From Armatimonadota bacterium (GTDB taxonomy: Bacteria; Armatimonadota; Fimbriimonadia; Fimbriimonadales; Fimbriimonadaceae), in assembly GCA_029781035.1 (NCBI GenBank), contig JAKOXK010000070.1:1-64000 (forward strand): DNA of 64,000 nucleotides. The letters are read 5' to 3'. Each line of letters begins with the position of its first letter. Position 1 is the first letter of the stretch. Shown here piece after piece: positions 4,471 to 32,930 of this stretch. The position numbers were made by a program, and so were the translations under genes. The notes under the pieces were generated by a model. That model was not told where the DNA came from. It did no database searches and worked only from the letters and a program-made list of their open reading frames with translations.

Positions 4471-7400
4471 TCACGTGTTCAGGTCTTGCCTTTGCGAGGC
4501 TTCGTCGTCTTCCCTCTTGGCCTGTCTCCCGTAGTCGTCGGCGACCCGCTGTAAGAGTGCCGCACACTTAGGGAATCTGGGACGGACACTCTTGGCCAAT
4601 CCTTCGTACTTCGCTTCCTCTGCCCTTTCCAGGTCGCCGCCTGCATACGGCGCCCGCATCGTCACCCCTCGGCTGTTCAGGACGCCAACGACAAACCCTT
4701 CGCCCAGCTCCTTCGTCCCATCCACCTCAAAAAGCTCGCAGACCGACTCATGGGGCCACATACCGGAAGGATCTTCAGGCGATGCGGCCAAGACGCGACC
4801 AATGACTTCGTCCAGCACCTCCGCGCGGTCGATTTCAGGCTGGCTCGCGAGCTGTCTTGCCATTCGTACGTAATCGCGCAGTGCCGCGACGTCGATGTCT
4901 CCATTGGCTCCAGTGCCGGGAACGATCCTCCAGTTGTCGAGCGTCATGTACGCCGATTGAGCCAGTGCCGCCTCTTGTTCGGTCGGCTCCCTCTTCTCGC
5001 GGCCCTTTGCCTTGAAGGCCATACACACGAGTTCGACCAAGAGTTCCGGGTCTCCGGCGAGCGCTTGGCCAAGGGCCCTCGGCTCGCGCAGGTATCCCAG
5101 GACAGGCATGAAAAAGAACTCCAAACGAGCTGTCTCGACTAGCGACGCATGCCCGCGCTCGACCAAGCGATCGATGACTTGTCCGATTTCATAGCCAAGC
5201 CTGCCGATCGATTCGGCGTTCGCCTGTGCCGTGTCTCTAAGCAGGCTAAGGGCCGTCAATGCCAATTCGTCTGGGAAATCCGAGACGCCAGGCTGGGGCG
5301 CCAGCGCCAGTAGGTCGACCACTTCGGCCGCTCGTCCGACCGCTAGCAGGTGGTCGAGCGCATATCGGCCTTCAACCCCGGTTGTCGGTATGCGCAGGTG
5401 CGGGACGGAGCGCCAGTAAGCCTCGCAGGTGTCGTCGCCTGCCGACTCGACAAGCCGCCACACGTCCATGGAGTAGTCTGCGCAGTTGCAGAGCTCTGCT
5501 CTCTGACTAGGCGTCAGGTGCGCCGTGCTGGTCGACCGCAGGATCCCGCGCAGCCATTGTCCGCCCTCTACCTCGATGCGACGAGTGGCAAACCCGACCG
5601 CCAACCCATGGCGGCCCGCTGCGTGTTCACCAAGGTTGCGGGCTAGGAAAAGGACGCCCTCTTCGTCTCTCCAAATCCGCAGGTCAGCGGCGGCCCGACC
5701 CACAAAGTACGGTGCTGCGACCAGGCCAGCGAACCGTTCGACCGCAGCTTCACCGCTTTGTTCGAAGATGCTCCGGACAGACTCTTCACGCAAGTCACCG
5801 AGCCGCCGTTGCTCTTCTTCGTAGTTGTGGCCTTCGCGCTTCCACTGCTCGGGCAGATCGACCCACTGCTCGAAGAGCCACTTGTCGCTCTGCATCGAGT
5901 CCTTCGGCGCAAGGGCCGCCAACACCGCTTCAAGCCTCTTCATTTGGCCGGGCTCGAGTCCCCACTCGGCGTCTGGAAACCGGCGGTGGTGGTGCCAGGT
6001 GCCCCGAAGCCTTTCCCACAGGCTCGTGGACTCTTCCGGCGAGAACTTCTCGATCGATTTCTCAAGCGCGTCTAACAGCAGGCCAGCCCAGTCAGGGCCA
6101 AGACCGAGGACTCTCGACGCAAGGTCTGCCCATCGAACGGCGTCGGTGCCTGCGTCGGCGATCGCCCAGTTCAACGACTCGAGACCGGCCCTACTGACCT
6201 CCTGCCTCGGGACGCGCGGCTGATCGCCGCTCACCCATGGCCTTAGCTCCGGACGGCTGGTCGGCATGCCTACCGCGTGCCTCTGCGGTATCTGGCTCAG
6301 CAACAAGCCCCAAGCTGCAGAGGGAAACTGCTTGCGCACCAAATCAATGGCGCTGAGACGTTCGTCCAGCGTGGCGGTGGTGCAGGGTCGCCAAGGGCGG
6401 AACACCTCCGCAAGGCTTGAAGCAGGGTTGTTTCCGGAAGCGCCAAAACCTATCTGAGCAAGGCGGGCCAGGGCCACCGCCACTCGAGGAAGGTACAGGG
6501 GCGCCCAAGCGAGCCGCTCCAACGCCCACAAAAGGTGATGGTGGCGGCTTGACGACATGAGTGGTCCGTTGTCTTCGGAAAGTAGGCCAGCGACGCAATT
6601 CGGGCGCTCTGACAATAGATCCGTTTCCAATGCCTCGAGAAACTCGTCAGGAGCCGCTTCGGCCAACAGCGGCAATAGGGGTGCCAGGGAGTACCAGCGT
6701 TGCGGCGCAGCATCGTCAAGGAGGTTGGTCACGAGACGTTCGGCCAGTGCCTTGCCCGAAGAACCGTCTGAAAGGTCAGGGTTTTGTGCGGCAAGGAGCC
6801 CGATCGACCGTGCGGCTCCCTGCTTGATCGCGCTGCTGAACAGGGGGCTCCTGGCATAGAGGCCAGCTTTCCATCGCTCGCTAGGATCTAGCTCGTAGGA
6901 CGGGTCGTCCTCCATCAAGACGGTCGAGACGTGGTCCCCGAACCGGGCCAGGACCGCCGGATCGCCCAGTTGACCAAGTGTGCGCCATGCTTCGGGCGGA
7001 TCGGTCACGAACCAGGTTCGGCCGGACTTTCTGAGAAGTGGTGGCGACTCCGAAGGCAGGCGCTGGATCCAAGCCAGTGTGTCAGCGTACGAGACTCCTG
7101 CCAGTGTGGCAACCGCATGCTGGTCGTCTTCGTTGTCGCTGCTCCAGCGGTCCGCCAGAAGAACTGCTGCTAGGATCCGCGGGTCAGGCGCCCTCTTCCG
7201 GATCAGTCTGAAAAAACGCGACGGCGCTCCTAGCCGCTGCCGGAGGTGCTCCACGCCGTTGCGCGCCATACGGGCAGCCTCTTCAGCTTGGTAACGGTCG
7301 ATCCCCGAATCCGTGATCCTTTCGGCGAGCCGACCAACGTCGACTTTGGGCACGTTCACAACGTTGTGGCCACTGGGATACTGCAGCATGACCAGCCGGT

Positions 7401-8253
7401 TGTTCCGTGTGACCTGCCCAGGGTGGGAGTCGTCAAGGTCGCACTTGGCCACAAGCACGCACTGCGTAACGGTGGACGCCAGGTGTTGGAGGCTCGCGGT
7501 CTGTTCGACGACCAGTGTCCTAAGGCCGAGGCGAGTCAGGTTCTCCTCCGTGGAAGTGAGGATCACGCTTGCCAGGAAAGCCACCGCCTCGTTCTCCGAA
7601 TCGGCCACGATCTGGACTAGCTGCTGGCTCAGCATGGTGTCGGCCAACTTCTGGGCCACATCGTCCCTTCCAGACAAGAGCCAATCGCGCCCAATCCGGT
7701 TTATGCCGCAATAGGCCCAGTCCTCAAACCAGTCCTCAAGCACGCGGATGCCATCGACGGCCAAGCCGAGCCTACTGCTGATCCAGATATGGACGGGCGG
7801 GCAATAGCAGAGCCACTCCCAGAGATCATCAGCATCAAGAAAACGCACTTCTCGCCAACCGGCCTCGCGTTGGTCGTCAGCCCACTTGTCTTTGGCCGAC
7901 CACCTTCTCAGGGAAACCCCCACGTAGGTCGTCTTAGCGCGCACCGACTCCTCTGTGTCCCCGGTGCGTTTGTCAAAGTCTTTGGAGGCTTTGTCGCTGG
8001 CATTTGGGTCTTGGGCTGTCAGTTCCCATACCGAATCCCCATCGGGTACGTGGGCGGTTTTGATCGGGGCATTGACCTCTCCGTCGTAGCCACCAAGCCT
8101 GATGCCAGTACCCGTCCTGAAAGTCACGCTGGTGGGCGGCTCTGACTCGAAACGAACCAGCCTTTGGACAAGCTCTGGCAATAGGCCGGCCGCTTCGAGC
8201 CTGCCAGCGGCCGCGACCAGGCCGTCGCTGTCGACGAAGTGGGGGCTGCTCAC
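4471..8253 (-). CDS. Large defence-like protein: PD-(D/E)XK-like N-terminus, degenerate NTPase region, helical repeats
   Basis: A 1260-aa soluble protein. Residues 50-100 contain GYDGEV and SVWELTA followed by a Lys-rich stretch, a pattern resembling restriction-endonuclease-like folds (Asp57, Glu77, possible Lys 88-95); the usual E-X-K lysine is replaced by Thr. Residues 185-330 look like a P-loop NTPase core, but the loop position (QLVQIVADSENEA) lacks GXXGXGKT, so ATP binding is doubtful. From about 350 to the end the protein is alpha-helical with HEAT/TPR-like character. The architecture matches very large anti-phage sensors in defence islands. It is followed by non-coding DNA and lies near ArdC, restriction-modification and STAND genes. 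Function is inferred from architecture and neighbourhood. Confidence 0.55.
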   Translation of the reverse strand: MSSPHFVDSDGLVAAAGRLEAAGLLPELVQRLVRFESEPPTSVTFRTGTGIRLGGYDGEVNAPIKTAHVPDGDSVWELTAQDPNASDKASKDFDKRTGDTEESVRAKTTYVGVSLRRWSAKDKWADDQREAGWREVRFLDADDLWEWLCYCPPVHIWISSRLGLAVDGIRVLEDWFEDWAYCGINRIGRDWLLSGRDDVAQKLADTMLSQQLVQIVADSENEAVAFLASVILTSTEENLTRLGLRTLVVEQTASLQHLASTVTQCVLVAKCDLDDSHPGQVTRNNRLVMLQYPSGHNVVNVPKVDVGRLAERITDSGIDRYQAEEAARMARNGVEHLRQRLGAPSRFFRLIRKRAPDPRILAAVLLADRWSSDNEDDQHAVATLAGVSYADTLAWIQRLPSESPPLLRKSGRTWFVTDPPEAWRTLGQLGDPAVLARFGDHVSTVLMEDDPSYELDPSERWKAGLYARSPLFSSAIKQGAARSIGLLAAQNPDLSDGSSGKALAERLVTNLLDDAAPQRWYSLAPLLPLLAEAAPDEFLEALETDLLSERPNCVAGLLSEDNGPLMSSSRHHHLLWALERLAWAPLYLPRVAVALARLAQIGFGASGNNPASSLAEVFRPWRPCTTATLDERLSAIDLVRKQFPSAAWGLLLSQIPQRHAVGMPTSRPELRPWVSGDQPRVPRQEVSRAGLESLNWAIADAGTDAVRWADLASRVLGLGPDWAGLLLDALEKSIEKFSPEESTSLWERLRGTWHHHRRFPDAEWGLEPGQMKRLEAVLAALAPKDSMQSDKWLFEQWVDLPEQWKREGHNYEEEQRRLGDLREESVRSIFEQSGEAAVERFAGLVAAPYFVGRAAADLRIWRDEEGVLFLARNLGEHAAGRHGLAVGFATRRIEVEGGQWLRGILRSTSTAHLTPSQRAELCNCADYSMDVWRLVESAGDDTCEAYWRSVPHLRIPTTGVEGRYALDHLLAVGRAAEVVDLLALAPQPGVSDFPDELALTALSLLRDTAQANAESIGRLGYEIGQVIDRLVERGHASLVETARLEFFFMPVLGYLREPRALGQALAGDPELLVELVCMAFKAKGREKREPTEQEAALAQSAYMTLDNWRIVPGTGANGDIDVAALRDYVRMARQLASQPEIDRAEVLDEVIGRVLAASPEDPSGMWPHESVCELFEVDGTKELGEGFVVGVLNSRGVTMRAPYAGGDLERAEEAKYEGLAKSVRPRFPKCAALLQRVADDYGRQAKREDDEASQRQDLNT

Positions 8254-9172: not shown

Positions 9173-9344
9173 GGGTCGAGACCTCTCGACCGCCGGGCAA
9201 AGCTATCGCCGGCGTGTCCGCCCCATACAAAGGCAATCCAGACCTGATGCAAACAAATCACTCGTTTGTGCAAATGCTGGGCTGCGCAGTTGCACGAAAT
9301 AGATCGCGTTTGACGCCGGCGGCTTATCCCTCAACTGTAGGGGA

Positions 9345-9370
9345 TGCCCAGGGCCACGGGGCTCTGGGCA
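9345..9370 (+). promoter_or_regulatory. Stable hairpin in the leader of the ardC-like gene
   Basis: Arms TGCCCAGGGCC (9345-9355) and GGCTCTGGGCA (9360-9370) pair at 10 of 11 positions around loop ACGG. There is no T-tract. It overlaps the upstream in-frame ATG at 9344, which argues against that start. A nearby imperfect inverted repeat (TTTGTGCAA at 9265-9273, TTGCACGAA about 17 bp later) lies in the divergent promoter region. Confidence 0.4.
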
Positions 9371-9433
9371 CTGAGGTCAACCAATGCACATTCAAACAAA
9401 AGGGGCCCGCACACAGGGGCGCGAGGCTCCAGC

Positions 9434-10303
9434 GTGAACACCAAGCTCTACGAGGCGGTCACGGCTCAAATCACCAACGCGCTCCTTCGCGGAGTGGTGC
9501 CCTGGCGAAAGCCGTGGGCCGGAGGCGATGCGCTCCCGACCAACGCTAGGAGCAGGAAGCCGTACCGAGGCGTCAACGTGTTCCTGCTGGCTCTGGGCCC
9601 GTACTCAGACCACCGTTGGGTCACCTTCAACCAGGCGCGAGAGCTCGGCGGGTCGGTGCGACGAGGCGAGCGAGCGAGCCCGGTCGTCTTTTGGAAGCCT
9701 TGGCAGGTGGAAGGCGTCGACCAAGAGACCGGTGAGGTTCACAACTGGAAGGTTCCGATCCTCAAGCAGTACGTCGTCTTCAACGTCGAGCAGTGCGATG
9801 GTCTCGACATCGCGCCCCTTTTGCGCAGCGATCAAGCCAACCGGCGAATCGAGAGCGCAGAGAAGGCTGTCCGCAACGTGCCCGACCCACCGCGTTTTCA
9901 GGAACAGGGCACGTCCGCCTGGTATCGACCTGCCGAGGATCTTGTCCAAGTGCCCCCCATCAGTTCGTTCGAGTCGCCGGATGCCTACTATGCGACGGTC
10001 TTCCACGAGCTGGGACACGCCACGGGTCACGAGAGACGATTGAACCGTGCGTCAGTCACGGGTGAGATCCAGTTCGGCTCTCCGTGTTACAGCCGTGAGG
10101 AACTGACTGCGGAGCTCTGCTCAGCCTTCCTGTGCGCCACGATCGGGCTCGACAACTCGCTGATCGAGAATTCAGCAAGCTACATCCAGTCTTGGCACTC
10201 GGCACTTCACAGCGACAAGCGCGCGATCGTGGTCGCTGCGTCTCGGGCACAGAGAGCCGCCGACTATCTCCTGGGAGTCACCTTTGACGACCAACTGGTC
10301 TAG
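9434..10303 (+). CDS. ardC: ArdC-like antirestriction protein
   Basis: A 289-aa protein from the GTG start, with the ArdC architecture. The N-terminal ssDNA-binding domain (VNTKLYEAVTAQITNAL, VVPWRKPW, YRGVNVFLL) is followed by a zinc-metallopeptidase-like domain with FHELGHATGH and a downstream EELTAEL glutamate. ArdC proteins protect incoming mobile DNA from host restriction. The GTG is chosen because GAGG lies 7 bases upstream and family similarity starts there; an ATG at 9344 lies within a hairpin. The gene is divergent from the DprA-like gene and single, with its own terminator. It marks the island as derived from a conjugative or plasmid-like element. Confidence 0.85.
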   Translation: MNTKLYEAVTAQITNALLRGVVPWRKPWAGGDALPTNARSRKPYRGVNVFLLALGPYSDHRWVTFNQARELGGSVRRGERASPVVFWKPWQVEGVDQETGEVHNWKVPILKQYVVFNVEQCDGLDIAPLLRSDQANRRIESAEKAVRNVPDPPRFQEQGTSAWYRPAEDLVQVPPISSFESPDAYYATVFHELGHATGHERRLNRASVTGEIQFGSPCYSREELTAELCSAFLCATIGLDNSLIENSASYIQSWHSALHSDKRAIVVAASRAQRAADYLLGVTFDDQLV

Positions 10304-11828: not shown

Positions 11829-12257
11829 TCACCCCTTTATGCTTGGTCGGATGCAGTCGTAGCGAAGAACCTGCTTGCCATCATGACCCTCGTCAACCGA
11901 GATGTTCCGGGCGAGACTCGCGGTAAGGAATGGGTTGTGCCCGAAAATGAACGAGCCAAGGTAGGGGACACCCTCGATTTGGCCCTCCTGGAACAGACTA
12001 GATCTCATACGTCGGAACCATTTACCACCCTTGGAGTACTCGAGCCGCTCGGCGATGGTGAAGAAACGGTCGATGTAAACAAGCTCGGCAAATCGGAGAA
12101 CTTGTTCTTGGCTCAGTCTTCCACTCAGGACGAATACTTGAGTAGTATCGATGTGCTCAGTCGCGTGGCCACCCGTCCAGTCCCACCGAATCACCCACCG
12201 GGTTCCCTTGGCGGCACCTACCTTTGGCAACGTTTTGCCCCCATCATGTTTGGTCAA
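11829..12257 (-). CDS. Small protein overlapping the STAND nuclease gene (possible partner)
   Basis: About 142 aa from TTG 12257, or 133 aa from TTG 12230, which has GGGGG seven bases upstream. The longer frame to 12350 lies inside the STAND gene and reads as low-complexity Arg/Ser, so it is rejected. The body is beta-rich (WVIRWDWTGGHATEHID, IEGVPYLGSFIFGHNPF) with no recognised family. Its start overlaps or abuts the 3' end of the 2035-aa STAND gene, implying translational coupling and a shared role. Confidence 0.55.
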   Translation of the reverse strand: MTKHDGGKTLPKVGAAKGTRWVIRWDWTGGHATEHIDTTQVFVLSGRLSQEQVLRFAELVYIDRFFTIAERLEYSKGGKWFRRMRSSLFQEGQIEGVPYLGSFIFGHNPFLTASLARNISVDEGHDGKQVLRYDCIRPSIKG

Positions 12258-15200
12258 CCTCGGAGTCCTGGGGCAGCTCGACGTGCTCCTCCACCATCTT
12301 GACCGCTGCCTTGCCAGAGGACTTCTTGCTCGGAATGGGGGGTGCTTCAATGGTGTCTCGGACGGTCATCACTCGGATCGGGAAGCGCGTCATCGCATGG
12401 AGTCGATCGAATACGTCCGGTCGCGCGATTAGATCACAGCCATAGAGCGTCGGCGACTCCTCGTCGAAACGGTCTCCACACGGTCTGACGTGCCATACTC
12501 GCAACTCTACGGCGACTTCGCCGTTCGCGTCAACGAAGCAGTAAGGACGCTGACCGTGGAGGGTCAAGCCAAGGCGCGAGACATGCTCTGGATCAAGTCC
12601 GAAGATTGTTCTTTCGCCCAATATGTCGGCCCGTTGTTCCATCACGATTAAGGGCCCATGAATCAGCTGTACGACGCCATCGAACCGTGGCTGATGCTTC
12701 CAGACCTTCAACGGAGAGCTGGCATACGGCAAGGCTCCTGAAGGGATTGCGTCGCCCTTCACACTGACGATTCCAGAGTACACAGTGACCTCTCCCATCG
12801 CGTGTGGGAGCATCTCGTCGCCGAAGAGCACTTGAGTTTCCGCCTTGGCTATCCGTACCCAACCTCCACGTGGGGCGTTGTCCGCCTCCCGTTTGCACTC
12901 GTCCAAACCGTCCTCGATCTCACTGGGCATTGGATAGTCGGGCCGCAAGCCTCGGCATCTGCGCAGGTGCACGGCGGACTCCGTATCCGGCTTCAAGAGG
13001 TCGAAGAGCGGCCCGGCTGAATCTGGACTCCACTGGCCCGCCGCCTTGAAGTCACCTGGCAGGTACATGCCTTGCCGATTGATCACGGTCTCGAACAACT
13101 CTGTTTCCCAGTGGAGCATCGGAGGTTCGGGCAGTCGACGAACCCCTGACCTAGCTACCTCGTGTCTTTCCTGGGATCGGCGCTGCAACCCTGATTCGTG
13201 CCACGTTGCGTCGAAATCGGCTGCGACAACGTCACCGAAGTTTGGCACGACTCGCTCAATCCGTTCGAGTCGACCTTGGTGATCGAGCCATCGTATGGCC
13301 CGAACCCGCTGAGCCCCCAAGCCCTCATCACGCGGTTTGACTTTGATCATTGCCGGGAACGGAGCCGCATGCAGCCCTCGTCGCTGGAGTAAGGCGCGGG
13401 CGAGGTAGTCGAGGCTGAAGTGGTCAGTCCCCACAAGTAGTCCAAGCGGATCTGCCAGTCCTGCGCTCAGGTCATATGGCGCTGGCTCGTGTTCGTACAC
13501 TGCCTGGAGCAAGAGAGCGAGATTGGCGTCGGTCGAGTCTCGCCGAATCAGTCTCGACATGCCCGGGACAAGGCTCTGAGGGTTGCGGGCCAGGAGTTCA
13601 CAAATGCCCGCAAGAGCTTCAGTCTTGCGAGTAAGTTCCGGGTGCGCGGTTCTCGCCAGGAGGGCATAGCCAAGGGCTTCGTCCAAGACATTGGTAAAGA
13701 CTGCACCGGGTTGGTATCGAGTCAAAACACCGCGGGACGGCGCGCCGTCAGGTTCTTCGAGCCGATGCTGCAGCACTCCAAAAAGTGCTTCCCAAGCCGA
13801 TTTCGCGTCGTCCCGCAGGCCGATAGCGACAAGGGCCTCAACGAGGTGCTGACCGAGCCCGTACGGGTAAGACCGACCGAGCTCGGCCGACTCAGCCGCG
13901 AGCATGTCGATCGCCAACTGACGATCGGCGCGTAGACCTTCGGCGAGGAGATGAAGCTGATCCTTGTCCCCGAAGCAGCCCCATCCCCAATTCCCTCGCG
14001 CTCTCGTATAGGCGAGAACGAATGTCACTGCGGCTAGACGAGTTCTTCCAAGTCTGTCGAACTCCTGTGCCAAGGTCGCCAGGATTTCCCCAGACCTGAA
14101 AATGCCCACCTCGTGGGCCAGAGCCCGAACAAGACTTAGCGCGTCCGCGAAGAGGTCGTCAGCATCCAGTGAGGCCAGGCGCGGGACGAACATCTGCACG
14201 AATAGATCTGCGTTCTCGCCCTTTTCCAACAGTCGACCATCCAGGCGACGAATCCAGGCCAGGATGTCGAGTGGGCTCGCATCGGTAGCAAACATCGAGA
14301 TCGACCCAAGCTCGTCGTCTCGCGACCGACTCGCCGAATCGTTGTCTCCACCGTCGCTCTTTGACGGTTTCGGCGGCAGGCTGGAGACCGGAAGAGGAAT
14401 GCCATGATTACGGCAAATCGGCTCGATCAGCCCTTGCCACTTAGGGTCATCGTCTACCGGGTCGCCTTCAAACTTGGCTGCAAAGAGCCGCACATGCACG
14501 TCGGCTTCGTCCTGCTCCGTGACGACTTCCTGCAAGGTGTCCAGCATGGCTGCCCGGCTCTCCTTGCCGCCTCCGTACGGAATACTCAGCAATAGATCCC
14601 GACGGACAAGTGGATCCCCCTGATTACTCAAATGCGCAACCGCATCTGCCAGTGCTTCCTCCATGATCCAGCCGTGCCTTCCCCCCCATTGCACAAGTGA
14701 ATCCCCAAGGAGGCAGAGCGCGCCACATGGATCTACGGCCAGAAGAGTTTCAAACCAAGTCCCGGGTAGGTGACGCGTCTCCTTGCCGTCGGTGTGTGCG
14801 ACCACCGTGTTGACCAAAGGCTGAACTCGCTCGGTGCAGGAGCGAGCATAGTCCGGATCGCTCTCGCCCAGGGCCGGTAACCCATGCACCAAGTCGAACA
14901 GCAGCATGTCCTTGCGGAACCCATAGGAGCACAGGAACACAGAAGCGCGATCCCAGTGTTCGAGGGCCTCATCGGGACGACCAGCTATGGCGAGGGCCTC
15001 GGCATAGTGGAGCTCGTGCTCGGCATGAGTGTCAAACAGGTGGCTTTGAGTCGTCGATGCCTCGTACTCTGTCCGAATGAACTCGAACACCTCCGGGCGC
15101 TGCTGCGACGCGGACAGGGCAAGTAGAATCTCCGTCAACACATCGGTTGTCAGCGGGCCAGTTCGACTGCGCTCAAGCCCGGTGGTTGTCCCCTTGATCA

Positions 15201-18200
15201 CGGCTCGCAGTGCTGTAAGACTTCGCGACCAATCATCGTCCGTGCTGATAAGCTCCAGCGCTCTCCGCACAGAACTGGCCGCCAAGCTACGGTGTTGATA
15301 GAGGTCACATGCACGGGGCTCGCCGACGAAGGGGCGAGTGTCTGAAGCGAGCTGCTCAAAGGCCTCCGCAATGCTGTCCAGGGAGCCGGCCTCGATTAGA
15401 GCCGTATCGATGACGAACTGCAGCCAAAGGCGATACCAGCCTTCTCCAGCCATCCTTGTCCGGAGAGCGTCAAGGTCCGACGGGTTCAGGTGGGCGTGGA
15501 GCTGGACGCGATTGATCCACTCGCCAACTTCGTTGTCTTGGTTATATCGGCCTGGCGCGGTAGTCGGATCGAATTCGTCCAGCGGAAAGGCATCCAGCCA
15601 GTCCGCCGAGGGCCTTGCACCTAGGGCAATCAGTTCAACCGCCATACCAGCAGAAACAGGCTGCTCGCAGGCAGCCTGAGCAACGGCTTGCGCAGCTTCT
15701 GAGTCGCCAAGTCGAAGCCACTCCCTCGCTAGGGCAATGTCAACAAGGCTCTCAACGTCGCTACTCGTCGTCAAGCTTGTCCGCAGCTCACCGAGCGCGC
15801 CCTTTCCTCCCAGCTTGGCAAGAAGATCGACAAGTTTTCTGAGAAAGCCCCTTGGAAAGTCAGGATCTCCGTTGAGGCGCTTGGCGAGTCGTCGGACGGC
15901 CCAAGCGATTCCCTTGACGCGCGCACGACCATGGAACTCCGCAAGGATCAGCTCGGTGGATCGTTCGTGACCTACCTCCTTCTCCCGCGAAGCGGGGAGA
16001 GGCAAGTACAGCCTCCATGGCGGGGCACCACCAGCATCATCACAAACGGAGCAGAGCTCCAGACCAACTTCACGGCTCATCGTGGGTCGGCCTTCGAACA
16101 CCAGGGCGCTTGCGAGGGCATCAGCGCCTTTCACGAGTGCCAGAACACGACCGTATTGTCTCGGAACGAGCTTCTCCCCGAAACATGTCCGCAGTGACGC
16201 CAGGAGGTGGCAACTTGCCAACAATCCGGCCCAGTCTTGAACCTGAGCAGCAACAGCGAGTGCCGTGTAGAGGTTCCTTTCGATCGACTCTTCGCTATGT
16301 CCCTCCGCCACTGACCGCGATACAAGTGTCGGGTCGATTCTCGAAAGAAGATCGTCGAAGCGGTGGCTCCGACGAAGTGTTGGGAGCAGGAATCGAAAGG
16401 CGCGCGGATCCTCCAGGAACCCTAGCGAATCGAGCCATCGGCGCAAGGGTTCGAGCACGGCCGCCATGTCGACGCCTTGTTGCGCCAAGCCCTCGAGGAT
16501 GAACCGCCGGAAGCTCTCATGGTAGACCCTGATTCCGCCGGTGCCACCATCCTGGCTGAGTACGGGGGCCAGAGCCTCGAGCGCATTGTCAAGATCGTAG
16601 GCAAAGTCGGGCAGGATCGATCTCAGGTCAGCTTTTGACAGCGCAAAGTCGGCCGATGATAGGACGCGTGCAACGTACTGTTGAGGGCCCTCGACGCTCG
16701 GCAACAGGTGTCTGTAGTAGGCCGAGACGTTCCCATCGATCGACGGCGCTCCGTCCAAAAACGAAACGGGATCTACTGCTCGTCCTGCTTGGAGCTGCGC
16801 ATCAAGCGAGCGAGTGAGGTATGTCGCGTAGAGGGGATTGCCGGCAGCCCGATCCGACAAGACGGCCAAAGTTTCGTCCGCTTTCAACCCCGCGTTCTCG
16901 AGAGCCGCCCGCAGACCGGCACGTTCGGCCAAGACGACGATGTCCTCAGCTGCCCAGGGGGGAACGCTTGTGAGGCTTGGCTTTAGACGACCTAACGGAG
17001 CGAGATGGGCCCCAGGCTGGGTTCCAAAGACAATATGGACGCCCTCTGGAATGTTCAGAGTGGCCAGCTCATCAATGATTCTAGATTCCTCAACCGTCAC
17101 TGCACCACTCGTCTGACGAACTCGATCGATGTGATCCAGTCCGTCGATCAGCAGAACAACATGACCGGTCGGGCTCCTTTCAACCGCACCGGGAAGCAAG
17201 CGTTCCAGTTCCCACCTTCCCGCAGCGTAAGTACGGTGGACGTCGTCCCGTAGTGACGGAGCTCCCTGAATAAGCTCATAAACGAGGTTGCCCCAGAGCA
17301 CATCCGTGCTGATTCTTCGAGACACAAGTTCATCACCCGGCTCAAGGAAACAATAGTGACGGGCAACAAGGTGGCGTGCTTCCCGGAGGTGCTTCGCCGT
17401 CTCCTCCAAGAGCCAAGTCTTTCCGCTGCCTGGAGGGCCCTCGACAATCGTCACACCGGCGGAGAGGACAGTATCGGCAATGCCTTCGAGCTGATCGGCT
17501 CGTTTGACAAGTCGTTCGGGGTCAACCGAAGGATCTTGCGGAACGGTGCCGAAATCGGTCCGGAGTTGGAGCCAATTCTCGACATCTCTAAGCCTGGTCT
17601 CGCCCGGTGAGTCCCGCCGGGTCCTCGCAAAGCTAACCAGGCGCTCGCCAATGTCATGCGGCGACTGATCGGCGTTCGGATAGTGACCGATTCCCAGGCG
17701 ATCACCTAGGAAGACAAGCAATGTGCCCTCGAGTTTTCCGGGGGCGCGAAGATCTTCAGAGAACTCTGGACACTCCAATTCGATGACAAACTTCGCGCAG
17801 AAGTCTGCGAAGTCCTGACGCGCCATGCGTTCGGCGGCAAGGATGTTCCAGGCAGGAACTCCTCCTGCCGGCCATAGGTGATCGACATTGAGCCGGTAGG
17901 TTCTTCCAACAGCTGAACTGAGTAGGGGGCGGCCAGGGTCAATCGGGATCAACCAGGCGACACTTGATAGGTCGGGCACTGTCCAGTTCGTCCAGAGTCG
18001 GTACTCGTCACACTCTGTCCCGCATCCAAGGTGAGTCCGTACCAAAGCATCAATGCGGAGTCCTGTTGAGTCGGTTGTAAAGTCCTCTTGCTTCAGCGAG
18101 CGAGCATCGGCGGAACTGTGCTTGACCTGAACCTTTGTCTTCTGACCGGAGCGGTGCCTGGTGAAGTCGTCGAACCGATCGCCCGCGATGGCCTTTCGGT

Positions 18201-18351
18201 CAATGAGCAGGGTTCCCGCACGGTCATGCAGGAGTTCCGCGAGGAGCAGGGCACCAAGCAGATCTTGGTACTCGTACCCTCGGCGAGCATGGCCTAAGGA
18301 TCGAGAGCCTGTTCCCGCTGCTGGCACGGTCTGATCATTGGCTCCGCTCAT
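12244..18351 (-). CDS. Avs-like STAND NTPase with N-terminal Cap4/DUF4297-type nuclease domain
   Basis: A 2035-aa protein. Residues 20-100 resemble the Cap4/DUF4297 dsDNA endonuclease: RRGYEYQD, an Asp pair at 61-62 and TKVQVKHS (Gln75, Lys77) give a PD-(D/E)XK-type active site. A P-loop NTPase follows, with Walker A GPPGSGKT at 305-312 and Walker B VVLLIDGLDH at 398-407. Residues from about 600 to 1650 are helical, TPR-like (for example AEALAIAGRPDEALEHW), and a further ~380-residue C-terminal region differs in composition. Nuclease, STAND core and long repeat sensor is the layout of Avs anti-phage proteins, which bind a phage protein and then cut DNA. The trigger is unknown. It neighbours a restriction-modification operon and is coupled to a small downstream gene. 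Confidence 0.75.
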   Translation of the reverse strand: MSGANDQTVPAAGTGSRSLGHARRGYEYQDLLGALLLAELLHDRAGTLLIDRKAIAGDRFDDFTRHRSGQKTKVQVKHSSADARSLKQEDFTTDSTGLRIDALVRTHLGCGTECDEYRLWTNWTVPDLSSVAWLIPIDPGRPLLSSAVGRTYRLNVDHLWPAGGVPAWNILAAERMARQDFADFCAKFVIELECPEFSEDLRAPGKLEGTLLVFLGDRLGIGHYPNADQSPHDIGERLVSFARTRRDSPGETRLRDVENWLQLRTDFGTVPQDPSVDPERLVKRADQLEGIADTVLSAGVTIVEGPPGSGKTWLLEETAKHLREARHLVARHYCFLEPGDELVSRRISTDVLWGNLVYELIQGAPSLRDDVHRTYAAGRWELERLLPGAVERSPTGHVVLLIDGLDHIDRVRQTSGAVTVEESRIIDELATLNIPEGVHIVFGTQPGAHLAPLGRLKPSLTSVPPWAAEDIVVLAERAGLRAALENAGLKADETLAVLSDRAAGNPLYATYLTRSLDAQLQAGRAVDPVSFLDGAPSIDGNVSAYYRHLLPSVEGPQQYVARVLSSADFALSKADLRSILPDFAYDLDNALEALAPVLSQDGGTGGIRVYHESFRRFILEGLAQQGVDMAAVLEPLRRWLDSLGFLEDPRAFRFLLPTLRRSHRFDDLLSRIDPTLVSRSVAEGHSEESIERNLYTALAVAAQVQDWAGLLASCHLLASLRTCFGEKLVPRQYGRVLALVKGADALASALVFEGRPTMSREVGLELCSVCDDAGGAPPWRLYLPLPASREKEVGHERSTELILAEFHGRARVKGIAWAVRRLAKRLNGDPDFPRGFLRKLVDLLAKLGGKGALGELRTSLTTSSDVESLVDIALAREWLRLGDSEAAQAVAQAACEQPVSAGMAVELIALGARPSADWLDAFPLDEFDPTTAPGRYNQDNEVGEWINRVQLHAHLNPSDLDALRTRMAGEGWYRLWLQFVIDTALIEAGSLDSIAEAFEQLASDTRPFVGEPRACDLYQHRSLAASSVRRALELISTDDDWSRSLTALRAVIKGTTTGLERSRTGPLTTDVLTEILLALSASQQRPEVFEFIRTEYEASTTQSHLFDTHAEHELHYAEALAIAGRPDEALEHWDRASVFLCSYGFRKDMLLFDLVHGLPALGESDPDYARSCTERVQPLVNTVVAHTDGKETRHLPGTWFETLLAVDPCGALCLLGDSLVQWGGRHGWIMEEALADAVAHLSNQGDPLVRRDLLLSIPYGGGKESRAAMLDTLQEVVTEQDEADVHVRLFAAKFEGDPVDDDPKWQGLIEPICRNHGIPLPVSSLPPKPSKSDGGDNDSASRSRDDELGSISMFATDASPLDILAWIRRLDGRLLEKGENADLFVQMFVPRLASLDADDLFADALSLVRALAHEVGIFRSGEILATLAQEFDRLGRTRLAAVTFVLAYTRARGNWGWGCFGDKDQLHLLAEGLRADRQLAIDMLAAESAELGRSYPYGLGQHLVEALVAIGLRDDAKSAWEALFGVLQHRLEEPDGAPSRGVLTRYQPGAVFTNVLDEALGYALLARTAHPELTRKTEALAGICELLARNPQSLVPGMSRLIRRDSTDANLALLLQAVYEHEPAPYDLSAGLADPLGLLVGTDHFSLDYLARALLQRRGLHAAPFPAMIKVKPRDEGLGAQRVRAIRWLDHQGRLERIERVVPNFGDVVAADFDATWHESGLQRRSQERHEVARSGVRRLPEPPMLHWETELFETVINRQGMYLPGDFKAAGQWSPDSAGPLFDLLKPDTESAVHLRRCRGLRPDYPMPSEIEDGLDECKREADNAPRGGWVRIAKAETQVLFGDEMLPHAMGEVTVYSGIVSVKGDAIPSGALPYASSPLKVWKHQPRFDGVVQLIHGPLIVMEQRADILGERTIFGLDPEHVSRLGLTLHGQRPYCFVDANGEVAVELRVWHVRPCGDRFDEESPTLYGCDLIARPDVFDRLHAMTRFPIRVMTVRDTIEAPPIPSKKSSGKAAVKMVEEHVELPQDSEVDQT

Positions 18352-18501: not shown

Positions 18502-19161
18502 CTAGACCTCTTCCTCGGTCTCTCCGTCAGTCTCGCTTTCTGTCGTCGCGTGGCCGGGACCACCCAGCAAGAATGCCTCGATTCGCGACTCAAGCTCGCC
18601 CAGGGTACGGCTGCTTGGAGCAAGGCCGGTCGCTAGCGAGCGGCCTGGATGCAGCGTGTCCCAATCCGAGGCGCGCTGACCGATCCTGCCCTTTCCGGGC
18701 ACCTTGATGCCGAAACCATCCAAAGCGAGATTCCAAGCGGGCCGAAACCACTCGATCACGGCATTCTCCCCGAGGGGAATCCACACGTCATCGACCACCA
18801 GCGAGCGATACCAGAAGTCGTCGAGATTCAGATTTGTTGCCTCTGCTATGGAGACAGCGTGAATGCGCAAGCGGCTCCGGAGCGCGTCGCCGATTCCGGC
18901 GTCTTTGCCTAATCCACCCTTCCGACCACCCTTGGGAATGGCCTTGCCGACATAAATCGGCTGGCGAAACTTGCCCTCGATGTTCAGTTGACTGATCCCG
19001 TGATACAGGGGAAAGCTGCCCGTGTAGTAGATGGCGTAGACTCCGGCCCCAACGAGCCCATCAGTGTCTGCCAGAGATCTCGGAGCTTGTTCAAAGAGTG
19101 CGTCGACGATGCTTTGGGCCAGATTTCGCTTCTCAAGTGGATTGTACGGAGTCGAGCTCAC
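18502..19161 (-). CDS. GIY-YIG type II restriction endonuclease, Eco29kI-like
   Basis: A 219-aa protein of the Eco29kI family. GVYAIYY at 40-46 and PIYVGKA at 68-74 are the GIY and YIG strands. RLRIH places Arg97 and His101 as the expected catalytic pair, and VIEWFRPAWN supplies Glu137 and Asn144. The spacing matches the published Eco29kI active-site set. The acidic C-terminal tail (DGETEEEV) is low complexity. It overlaps the upstream methyltransferase by four bases, so the pair forms a restriction-modification operon. Eco29kI cuts CCGCGG; specificity here is not known. Confidence 0.85.
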   Translation of the reverse strand: MSSTPYNPLEKRNLAQSIVDALFEQAPRSLADTDGLVGAGVYAIYYTGSFPLYHGISQLNIEGKFRQPIYVGKAIPKGGRKGGLGKDAGIGDALRSRLRIHAVSIAEATNLNLDDFWYRSLVVDDVWIPLGENAVIEWFRPAWNLALDGFGIKVPGKGRIGQRASDWDTLHPGRSLATGLAPSSRTLGELESRIEAFLLGGPGHATTESETDGETEEEV

Positions 19162-20528
19162 GGACGGCGCCTCAGGATGACGGCCGATTCGTAGAGGCGA
19201 GCATTTGATTGCTCCCCTCGCCGAACGGTCGATTTGGTGATGCTTGCCCCGACGCGTTTTGTTCGAAGCTCTTCAATCCCTGTTAGCTCAAGGCCATGTC
19301 GCGTGGCAATCCGTCCGAGGACTTGCTCCACTTTGATCTCGTGGCCCTGGATGATGGAGTTCCCTACGACGATAACGCCCGTGCCACCATCCACCAGGCT
19401 CCTGGAGAGCGACGCCAGGAATCGGTCTGAGTCATTGAAGTACGAGGCGGCATAGTTGGCCCAACCACCGCCACCGTAGACGCCCATGTCCGTGCGCGTC
19501 TCACGAATCTCATCCAAGACGACCTGCAGTTCTGTGTCTTCGAAGCCCAGGTATATCGGCGCTTGGCCCCGGACAGTTTGCCAATACTTGCCCACATTGA
19601 GTTCTTCGAGCTGCCGGAAGTCGCTCCGCTCCGTCAGCAATCCGAGCCAATACAGGTGCGGGCGGGTGCTCCTGATGTAGTGATAGTTATTGAGGTACGG
19701 CGGTGAGGTGACCGCCAGATCCACGGATCGTGGCTTGAGCACCTTGGCGGACTCCATGAAGTCCATACAGTGGATCAGAGCCTTGGGATTGGGCTTGCGA
19801 ACGGCCACGCCTTGAAGGGCTTCAGTATCGGCGCGCATGATTCGGAGCTTTGCGAGGACGGCTCCATGTACATCTGCCTCCTCGATCAGGGGCTTTCCCG
19901 CACCGGGACGGGTGGAAAGGCTCGGCTCGTAGGTGTAGTTCGAAAAGCTGACCATCACCGACCCGAACGCGACCTTGAAAAGATCGGCGACGGGCGATGC
20001 ATCGAGCGTTCGAAGGAACGCGAAAAACCCGAACACCTGATCCTCCACCTGGGGGCTGAAAAACGGAATCCGCGACTCAAACCCGTCCGGCTTGCTTCCC
20101 TCAGCCGTCCGGCTGCCGTTTCGGCTAGCGTACTCGTACCTCGCGATCGTATCGTCAAAGTCGGCGAGGTCGAGGGCGACGGCGGCGGCTTTGGCTTGGC
20201 AGGCGAGCGCGGCGTACGGGTTGATCTCGAAACCGACGGCATTGTGGCCCGCTTTCAGAGCCGAGACAATGGTCGTGCCGACACCGGCGAACGGATCCAG
20301 CACCGTGTACCGCTTCCGACGGGGGCTTGCGATGAAGGCCTTGAAGCAGTCCTCGACAAAGGACGCCGAGAACCCCGCGATCCACGGCACCCAGCGGTGC
20401 ACAGGGATCTGTTTGTTTTCCATGAAGGCGGGGTCACGGAAGACCGGACTCCCGGGTTCCTCGTAGTCGAGCCGCAGTTGCTCCCGGACTTTCTCGGGTG
20501 CTATCGGTGGGCTGGTCTCGACGTACAT
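19158..20528 (-). CDS. SPPY-type DNA amino-methyltransferase (type II modification enzyme)
   Basis: A 456-aa class I methyltransferase. SAM-binding motif I is VLDPFAGVGTT at 77-87, followed by GFEINPYA. Catalytic motif IV is TSPPYLNNYHY at 274-284, the S/D-P-P-Y signature of N4-cytosine or N6-adenine methyltransferases. Motif I precedes IV with a ~190-residue insertion between them, which may hold target recognition. It is first in a two-gene operon with the GIY-YIG endonuclease (4-bp overlap), so it is presumed to protect the same site. An exocyclic-amine enzyme contrasts with the C5 methyltransferase reported for the Eco29kI system. Confidence 0.85.
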   Translation of the reverse strand: MYVETSPPIAPEKVREQLRLDYEEPGSPVFRDPAFMENKQIPVHRWVPWIAGFSASFVEDCFKAFIASPRRKRYTVLDPFAGVGTTIVSALKAGHNAVGFEINPYAALACQAKAAAVALDLADFDDTIARYEYASRNGSRTAEGSKPDGFESRIPFFSPQVEDQVFGFFAFLRTLDASPVADLFKVAFGSVMVSFSNYTYEPSLSTRPGAGKPLIEEADVHGAVLAKLRIMRADTEALQGVAVRKPNPKALIHCMDFMESAKVLKPRSVDLAVTSPPYLNNYHYIRSTRPHLYWLGLLTERSDFRQLEELNVGKYWQTVRGQAPIYLGFEDTELQVVLDEIRETRTDMGVYGGGGWANYAASYFNDSDRFLASLSRSLVDGGTGVIVVGNSIIQGHEIKVEQVLGRIATRHGLELTGIEELRTKRVGASITKSTVRRGEQSNARLYESAVILRRRP

Positions 20529-29980: not shown

Positions 29981-30457
29981 CTAGATGGGGCCGTCGCGGG
30001 CAATCATGTCCGAAAAGTCGATTACTTCGATTTCCAAAAGATCGCAGGCATCTGGAATCTTCATCCTGTGGGCACCCTGCTGAGTCCTTCGCTCATGCGC
30101 CACGACGCAAGCCGGCCCCGAAGCAAAACACCCACCAAACTCATCATTCAAAGCCATCGCCATTGCCACTAGGGGCTGATCGGCGTCCGGCCCAGGCTTG
30201 CTGGAGTCCAGGAACGTGGGGCAAACCTCTGTGAGTTCCTTCAGGCACTCAAACTGTTTCGTTGTGTACGGATAGACCAGCATGTCTTTTCGAGCCTCGA
30301 ACCAGGGTTTCAGACGATCGTTCTTGTACTCGTCAAAAACAGCTTTGCATATGAGCAACCGCTTGGCCTTAGCCAGCGCCTCAAGCCTATTCCAAACGCT
30401 TGGCATCGCGTCAGGCCGCATGAACTGGAGAGGAACCAGGGCACTGTTGTCGATCAC
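29981..30457 (-). CDS. DUF4411 (PIN-like) toxin
   Basis: A 158-aa protein of the DUF4411 type. It begins with VIDNSALVPL (Asp near the N-terminus), then WNRLEALAKAKRLLICKAVFDEYKND with the second acidic pair, and DADQPLVAMAMAL with the third, the order of PIN-like nuclease acids. DUF4411 proteins are predicted RNase toxins that pair with Xre-ImmA/IrrE proteins. That is exactly the gene upstream (14 bp away, same strand). The GTG start follows directly after that gene's stop. Confidence 0.8.
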   Translation of the reverse strand: MIDNSALVPLQFMRPDAMPSVWNRLEALAKAKRLLICKAVFDEYKNDRLKPWFEARKDMLVYPYTTKQFECLKELTEVCPTFLDSSKPGPDADQPLVAMAMALNDEFGGCFASGPACVVAHERRTQQGAHRMKIPDACDLLEIEVIDFSDMIARDGPI

Positions 30458-30471
30458 GTAGACCTGTGGAA

Positions 30472-31728
30472 TCAGATTTCCCCCTTGCCAAAGGCAAACT
30501 GCTCAGCTCGGTCTAGGTACGACGTCGAGAAGCCGAGGAGATCACCAGCCTCGCTTTCTGATATGCGACCTGAGCCCAGAGCTTGCAGTACTCGTGCGGT
30601 CATTGGTCGGCCGCGATCCGCAAGTGCCAGTTGCCATTGAACGGGCCCAGACTTCTTCTCCTTCGTCTTCTCTCGCTCCTTTTTGAGCCTGGCTTGTTCC
30701 CTCGCGCTGTCAAAGACCCACCAGTCTGACCGCAACTGCTTGTAGTCGGCTTCGGAAATACCGCCAACGTCCCTGAATCTGCCCAGAAGAACGTACTTAC
30801 TGACCCGAAACTTACTGGCGAGCCTTTGGACGAACAATGAATCAAGCTCCTCTGCGGTCTCCATCTTGTCGAGAGCTCTTTTAACCAGCGGATCATCAAT
30901 CGGTAGCAGAAAGGCGGCAGAGAACGTGTTGCACCAGTGTTCCGTTTGGGCCATCTCGTCGTCGTCCGGGCCAAGGGATGTCGGTTCGATCACCGAGATG
31001 GCAGAGTCTCTTAGGGCTATGTGTCCAACTTCATGTAGGAGGGTGAACGTCCTGGCGACACGATAGTAGAGTTTTCGGTTGACAGCAGCCAGAGGCATCC
31101 GTCCATCGGTAATGGAGAATCCCCACGCCTGGTCTAACGGAACCGAGAATTGCTGGGTTAGGACGCCAACGCGAAGGAGAGCCTCCATCCAGCCCTCGTA
31201 CGCAAAGTCGTTTGGCCAAGCAACCTGCATTTCCATCGAGACGCCCACAACGTCCCTAGTTTCTGCGGCGGCGGTTTCCGGGCTATCCGCAAGCTGAGCA
31301 ATGGGGATCTTACAGCCACTCAAGTCGTGTTCGTTGTCCAAGAGTTCGGCGAAGCGGTCTCGGACGTACCTGGCCGTTCTAATGGCTAGCCTGATTTCCG
31401 GGCTGAGACCCCTAGATTGCAAAAGGATAGTCCTGCGAAGGGCGGTGGCTGGGTCGGGCTCGCGCGGCGGCCCCGGCATAAAGAAGGTGGCAATCGGTCT
31501 CTTTAGTTTGTTGGCGAGCTCCTCCAACTGTCGCGCAGTGGGCTGCTCGGCTTCTTGTTCCCAGGCCGCAATGACCTCGGGATGCCCAGGCTTCCCGACA
31601 GCCTGCGCTATCTGCTCTCTGGTGAAGCCCCCAATCCGGCGAGCCCACTCTAGCATCTCGCCATTGATCGGCGCCCTGACAAGTTCTCCCGAGCCAGAGT
31701 CAAAAAGCCCTTGCTGCACCGGTCGCAT
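30472..31728 (-). CDS. Xre-family HTH and ImmA/IrrE metallopeptidase-like antitoxin
   Basis: A 418-aa protein. Residues 25-82 are an Xre-type helix-turn-helix (MLEWARRIGGFTREQIAQAV, AWEQEAEQPT). The central region carries the ImmA/IrrE zinc-peptidase motif LLHEVGHIALR at 230-240 with a downstream Glu in the EMAQTEHWCNTFSAAFLLP helix. COG2856-type proteins of this form are the antitoxin/regulator partner of DUF4411 toxins. The two genes form a compact operon with the antitoxin first. Confidence 0.85.
   Translation of the reverse strand: MRPVQQGLFDSGSGELVRAPINGEMLEWARRIGGFTREQIAQAVGKPGHPEVIAAWEQEAEQPTARQLEELANKLKRPIATFFMPGPPREPDPATALRRTILLQSRGLSPEIRLAIRTARYVRDRFAELLDNEHDLSGCKIPIAQLADSPETAAAETRDVVGVSMEMQVAWPNDFAYEGWMEALLRVGVLTQQFSVPLDQAWGFSITDGRMPLAAVNRKLYYRVARTFTLLHEVGHIALRDSAISVIEPTSLGPDDDEMAQTEHWCNTFSAAFLLPIDDPLVKRALDKMETAEELDSLFVQRLASKFRVSKYVLLGRFRDVGGISEADYKQLRSDWWVFDSAREQARLKKEREKTKEKKSGPVQWQLALADRGRPMTARVLQALGSGRISESEAGDLLGFSTSYLDRAEQFAFGKGEI

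Positions 31729-32854: not shown

Positions 32855-32930
<76 letters not shown>

Follow-up and report, generated by a model that had tools for sequence, protein, structure and literature searches.

A distant, full-length relative of Avs3 in an Armatimonadota genome, and a C-terminal module that forms a separate gene in one clade

Background

The closest characterised relative of the protein considered here is Avs3 (AVAST type 3), which recognises a phage terminase (title of PDB entry 8DGC). In SeAvs3, viral proteins bind the sensor domain and a tetramer forms; neighbouring nucleases then pair up and cut DNA (PMC11291478). The large Avs3a protein has a frequent companion: of nine Avs3a loci that we examined, eight have a gene of Avs3b size directly behind Avs3a, usually overlapping it. 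Two of these small genes are annotated avs3b and one matches the Avs3b model. One of the nine Avs3a proteins comes from a genome found through the PADLOC Avs3b model and the other eight come from plasmids (two annotated avs3a).

We analysed a stretch of 64,000 nucleotides from an Armatimonadota bacterium (contig JAKOXK010000070.1; 'the window' below), in which an earlier note, made from the sequence alone, had described a large STAND protein with a Cap4-type nuclease and a small gene coupled to it, and had deduced from these a two-gene anti-phage system with a new accessory protein. Our analysis bears out part of this description and leads to a different picture of the small gene. We estimate at about 0.82 the probability that the product of the STAND gene is an Avs3-like anti-phage protein, NLR-like and self-contained, and that the small open reading frame (ORF) is no conserved component of the system.

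Results and discussion

Domain organisation of the STAND protein

The STAND gene is one uninterrupted ORF on the minus strand (12244 to 18351), with an ATG start and a product of 2035 amino acids, just as first described. Residues 17 to 270 (17542 to 18303, minus strand) form a Cap4/DUF4297-type PD-(D/E)xK nuclease, identified from the family alignment, from Pfam and PADLOC matches within the family and from structure prediction. On the window protein itself, the Pfam Cap4_nuclease model (PF14130) stays below its gathering cut-off (16.7 versus 26.2 bits, E 0.009); across the family, it matches 14 of 57 members (best E 1e-5), while the PADLOC LmuA model matches 27 (best E 2.5e-11) and HamA matches 18. 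The AlphaFold2 (AF2) model of residues 1 to 290 is of high quality (pLDDT 89) and is closest to Avs3 (8dgc, Z 15.9), followed by the HerA-DUF protein 9c1m (15.8), Cap4 (7yia, 15.2) and LmuA (9nxx, 13.6). The active site motif, D58..D61-D62..Q75-x-K77, is kept at all five positions in each of the 65 rows that have residues there, in an alignment of 67, and the five residues do not vary in a second, larger alignment either. The N-terminus thus models as a nuclease, of the very type that had been proposed for it.

The STAND/NACHT-like NTPase core follows at residues 281 to 450 (17002 to 17511, minus strand), where Pfam NPHP3_N scores above its cut-off (E 1e-8) and AAA_16 and NACHT fall just under theirs. 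Its Walker A motif, P307-G-x-G-K311, is invariant or nearly so in the 67-row alignment, and D403, G404, D406 and H407 of the Walker-B-like motif, D403-G-x-D406-H, occur in 66 of 66 rows; R410 is listed with these two motifs in the core. The claim of an intact Walker A/B NTPase therefore holds, and K77 and K311, which had been named as residues to mutate, belong to the nuclease and Walker A motifs respectively. Both sets of motifs are kept unchanged, or almost so, in some 65 homologues drawn from many phyla.

The remainder of the protein consists of helical repeats (residues about 660 to 1650; 13402 to 16374, minus strand), the presumed sensor, recognised by a colinear profile match to Avs3a at lower identity, and of a C-terminal module (residues 1650 to 2003; 12343 to 13404, minus strand) that is helical and then, from about residue 1788 to 2003, rich in beta structure. 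The AF2 model of residues 1650 to 2035 (pLDDT 81) shows a distinct helical-plus-beta module, in agreement with the distinct C-terminal region of the first description; no Pfam or PADLOC family matches this region. Mean pairwise identity within the family is 35 to 38% in the nuclease and NTPase and 17 to 30% in the repeats and C-terminal module (22 to 30% in the repeats alone). Such a pattern would be expected if effector and switch are conserved and the sensor diversifies.

Homology to Avs3a

An Avs-type architecture had been suspected for this protein, and profile comparison along its full length now ties it to Avs3a in particular. When an alignment of 24 family members was compared with the nine Avs3a proteins (hhalign), the two aligned over 1761 columns, residues 62 to 2001 against 78 to 2053, with a probability of 99.5 and an E-value of 8e-23; reversed-alignment controls gave E-values of 0.45 to 0.49. 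The signal is distributed along the protein. Separate hhalign comparisons gave E 2e-4 for the nuclease (9.4e-6 with a larger alignment), 4.9e-9 for residues 281 to 480, 2.1e-9 for residues 281 to 650 and 1.6e-7 for the repeats (residues 650 to 1650), and nuclease, NTPase and repeats each match the colinear part of Avs3a. Taken on its own, the C-terminal module gives a weak profile match (E 0.003 to 0.01). Its structural model, however, matches residues 1821 to 2048 of 8dgc_A (Z 9.4, rmsd 4.5, 166 residues aligned), with the next, unrelated match at Z 4.0, and the nuclease model matches residues 2 to 248 of the same chain (rmsd 2.7, 203 residues aligned). Nuclease and C-terminal domain each have 8DGC as top match, which amounts to independent matches to the two corresponding ends of one protein.

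The relation is a distant one, since a PDB sequence search with the family profile returned no match, the Avs3 structure included. BLAST and a single-sequence hhalign comparison with one Avs3a protein gave nothing convincing; the homology appears only when profile is compared with profile. Among the curated models of PADLOC and NCBIfam, none for Avs2, Avs3 or Avs4 matched the window protein at E 0.1. In our tree, Avs3a and the family of the window protein form separate groups with very long stems between them. The window protein is a distant, full-length and colinear relative of Avs3a, best described as belonging to a sister group; with no curated model matching and Avs3b missing, we did not file it as Avs3.

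Distribution of the family

A Pseudanabaena plasmid encodes a homologue that covers 97% of the window protein at 33% identity. An alignment of the window protein with three plasmid relatives was used as query for a scan of GTDB genomes, which revealed 75 loci encoding relatives, in Bacillota, Pseudomonadota, Actinomycetota, Bacteroidota, Campylobacterota, Spirochaetota and other phyla. The gene was not found in 200 genomes related to that of the window, and phyla are mixed in the gene tree; together, these two observations point to horizontal transfer. Scans of viral contigs with the same alignment returned no relatives. Since the family spans many phyla and is not seen by the Avs profile models that we tried, defence surveys based on such models probably miss it.

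Kinship with other Avs types was also considered. Avs2 was rejected: one Avs2 protein (Carboxydocella, L083:1414-6048, minus strand) matched the family profile, at the P-loop only. The same Carboxydocella genome carries a STAND gene that is among the nearest relatives of the one in the window. Of the Avs models in PADLOC and NCBIfam, Avs1b alone gives a match to the window protein, a weak one over profile region 323 to 529 of 1924 only; in the protein of one further locus (L010) it matches residues 342 to 633 at E 2.9e-9. A Klebsiella plasmid (L005:424-6489) encodes a 2021-residue STAND protein that the Avs1b model matches over the NTPase part (4e-24); its nuclease looks divergent and its C-terminal end similar, and what it detectably shares with the window family is the NTPase region only.

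A separate gene for the C-terminal module

We inspected the DNA behind the STAND gene in the 64 loci that extend at least 800 nucleotides beyond its stop codon. The C-terminal module is fused to the STAND protein in 51 of them, as it is in the window, encoded separately in ten, and without detectable counterpart in three. The separate form characterises a clade with members in Pseudoalteromonas, Vibrio, Moraxella, Gallibacterium and Arcobacter, where the STAND gene ends at about 1570 to 1600 codons. The next gene there, about 285 to 300 codons long, is homologous to the C-terminal module of the window protein and mostly overlaps the STAND gene by some 8 to 20 bases. Separate module genes lie at L003:11736-12599, L004:12760-13632, L035:14787-15635, L037:4892-5794, L039:14727-15587, L054:5097-5957 and L060:14718-15590.

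The eight split systems in the tree make up a single, fully supported group that lies within the fused members, and in the Avs3a outgroup the module is fused as well. Among the sampled loci, the split therefore probably occurred once, from a fused ancestor. Other arrangements were seen in single genomes: in Gallibacterium the separate module gene is broken (a degraded copy, L081), a Treponema locus outside the split group has a short separate C-terminal fragment (L071:15131-15553), and the Desulfothermus copy (L079) is decayed.

We also make a tentative proposal, which we hold at somewhat below even odds: the family of the window protein may be an AVAST type not yet named, a sister to Avs3 with its own phage trigger. 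Its C-terminal domain would be a specificity subunit that can be detached; the window protein and most members have it fused, and in one clade a gene coupled in translation would supply it in trans. The split clade offers a natural test of the role of this domain. Were specificity to reside in it, exchanging the separately encoded domain would be expected to alter phage range while leaving nuclease and switch untouched.

The small ORF behind the STAND gene

The small ORF ends at 11829 on the minus strand and would encode 142 residues when read from a TTG at 12257. Its in-frame starts are TTG at 12350, 12257 and 12230 and GTG at 12194. No ATG comes before 12008, and a product begun there would have 59 residues only, so a start that yields most of the frame has to lie at or near the 3' end of the STAND gene. 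On this point, and in finding no recognised family for the product (none in Pfam, NCBIfam, PADLOC or PHROG), we agree with the earlier note. The search for relatives was negative throughout. No homologue was found in plasmids, phages, IMG/VR viral contigs or 200 related genomes, and about 290 genomes of the phylum gave a chance-level match only (G247, E 0.005, 47 residues). All 64 STAND loci lack the ORF, both by phmmer on their ORFs and by tblastn on their DNA. The suggestion that homologues of the small gene might always follow such STAND genes thus finds no instance, with or without a STAND gene nearby.

Several identities for the ORF were tried and rejected. It is not a recognisable Avs3b (hhalign E 0.41 over 24 columns; nothing by BLASTP or hmmscan), it has no sequence similarity to the C-terminal module that would make it a second copy, and it falls into no known family. 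Downstream ORFs at near-zero spacing in three loci (L015, L027 and L068) share no family with it, and their translations resemble chance frames. Scans for promoters and terminators around the ORF were empty. On the opposite strand, an open frame of 139 codons (11883 to 12302, plus strand) runs antisense to it; this frame has no homologue in 150 relatives or in Pfam.

Is the small ORF nevertheless a partner, perhaps a lineage-specific accessory such as a regulator or an analogue of Avs3b, whose translation would be coupled to termination at the STAND stop codon? Read from its most plausible start, the TTG at 12257, it shares 14 bases with the STAND ORF, an AGGA stands eight bases ahead of this start, Avs3b occupies the same place behind Avs3a, and the codon-model score is inside the range of true genes (0.16, against 0.21 +/- 0.08 for true chunks), in their lower third and above 98% of false frames, 2% of which score as high. 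Against this stand the absence of homologues at the 64 related loci and elsewhere, the want of similarity to Avs3b or to the C-terminal module, and a phased Markov model, with the contig as training set, in which the opposite-strand ORF scores just as well, and we judge a two-gene system of this sort unlikely. Appreciably more credible, though still the lesser chance, is that there is no minus-strand gene here, the frame having arisen by chance or the real gene being the opposite-strand ORF. The Markov scores are practically identical (0.005 plus, 0.004 minus), neither frame has a homologue in the relatives searched, and long spurious frames are common in a window of 60% G+C, where 83 ORFs of at least 150 codons occur, many of them overlapping. 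The codon model, however, favours the minus frame (0.161 versus 0.118), as does G+C content by codon position (0.58/0.45/0.64 for the minus frame, 0.65/0.50/0.53 for the plus frame). The small ORF, of uncertain coding status, is then either an orphan gene or an open frame that does not code, and not a conserved component of the system. What stands of the gene coupling first described is an open frame with starts near the STAND 3' end; a real, coupled gene is not confirmed, and the label of new accessory protein is unsupported. The real coupled partner is the C-terminal domain gene of the split clade. The small ORF is probably no general part of the defence system and the STAND protein probably works without it, which removes a false lead.

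A further question concerns the target. The same architecture could serve mainly against plasmids or other mobile elements, and the restriction-modification genes that adjoin the STAND gene do act on plasmids as well; several of its homologues are also borne on plasmids. The closest characterised relative is directed at a phage protein, however, and we consider a mainly non-phage target quite improbable. An anti-phage role remains our preferred reading.

Genomic neighbourhood

As expected of a defence island, a restriction-modification pair lies immediately upstream of the STAND gene on the minus strand: an Eco29kI-type restriction endonuclease (18502 to 19161; Pfam RE_Eco29kI, 3.3e-54) and its partner, a type II DNA methyltransferase (19158 to 20528; PADLOC MTase_II, 1.5e-27; Pfam N6_N4_Mtase, 4e-10). 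Beside these genes, an ArdC-type antirestriction protein with a metallopeptidase domain is encoded at 9344 to 10303 (plus strand). A protein of 1260 residues (4471 to 8253, minus strand) has no match in Pfam, PADLOC or NCBIfam; its size and position suggest another defence gene. Further away, a DUF4411 protein adjoins an HTH/M78 peptidase protein (29981 to 31728, minus strand) in what looks like a toxin-antitoxin pair. A tRNA-Lys gene beyond the defence genes (32855 to 32930, minus strand) is a possible boundary of the island; no tyrosine integrase (PF00589) was found on the contig.

Proposed mode of action

The window protein contains every part that the SeAvs3 mechanism requires and, as far as sequence can tell, would work in the same way. 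By analogy, a conserved phage protein would be recognised by the repeats together with the C-terminal module, upon which the STAND NTPase would drive the formation of a tetramer. In the tetramer, the Cap4 nucleases at the N-termini would pair into active dimers and degrade DNA, which would end the infection while sacrificing the cell. The domains, their order, the full-length homology to Avs3a and the conservation of catalytic and NTP-binding residues are observed; phage sensing, oligomerisation, DNA cleavage and defence by this protein are predicted from its relatives.

Comparison with known systems

Avs3a, as represented by SeAvs3 (8DGC), is the nearest counterpart. It has the same parts in the same order, a Cap4 nuclease, a STAND NTPase, helical repeats and a C-terminal domain, and nearly the same length (about 2050 residues versus 2035). 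The window protein differs in being missed by BLAST and by Avs3 profile models, in falling into a separate group of the tree and in having no Avs3b gene behind it. Its small ORF is placed like Avs3b, a small gene directly after the large one and usually overlapping it, but with 142 residues against about 210 to 300 and no similarity. Cap4, LmuA, HerA-DUF4297 and HamA share the N-terminal nuclease fold with its D...QxK active site; there, however, the nuclease is partnered with SAVED, with Lamassu partners or with HerA or a helicase, whereas here it is joined to a STAND sensor. Avs1b (AVAST type 1) has in common with the window protein the STAND NTPase region only, the N-terminus of the latter being a Cap4-type nuclease.
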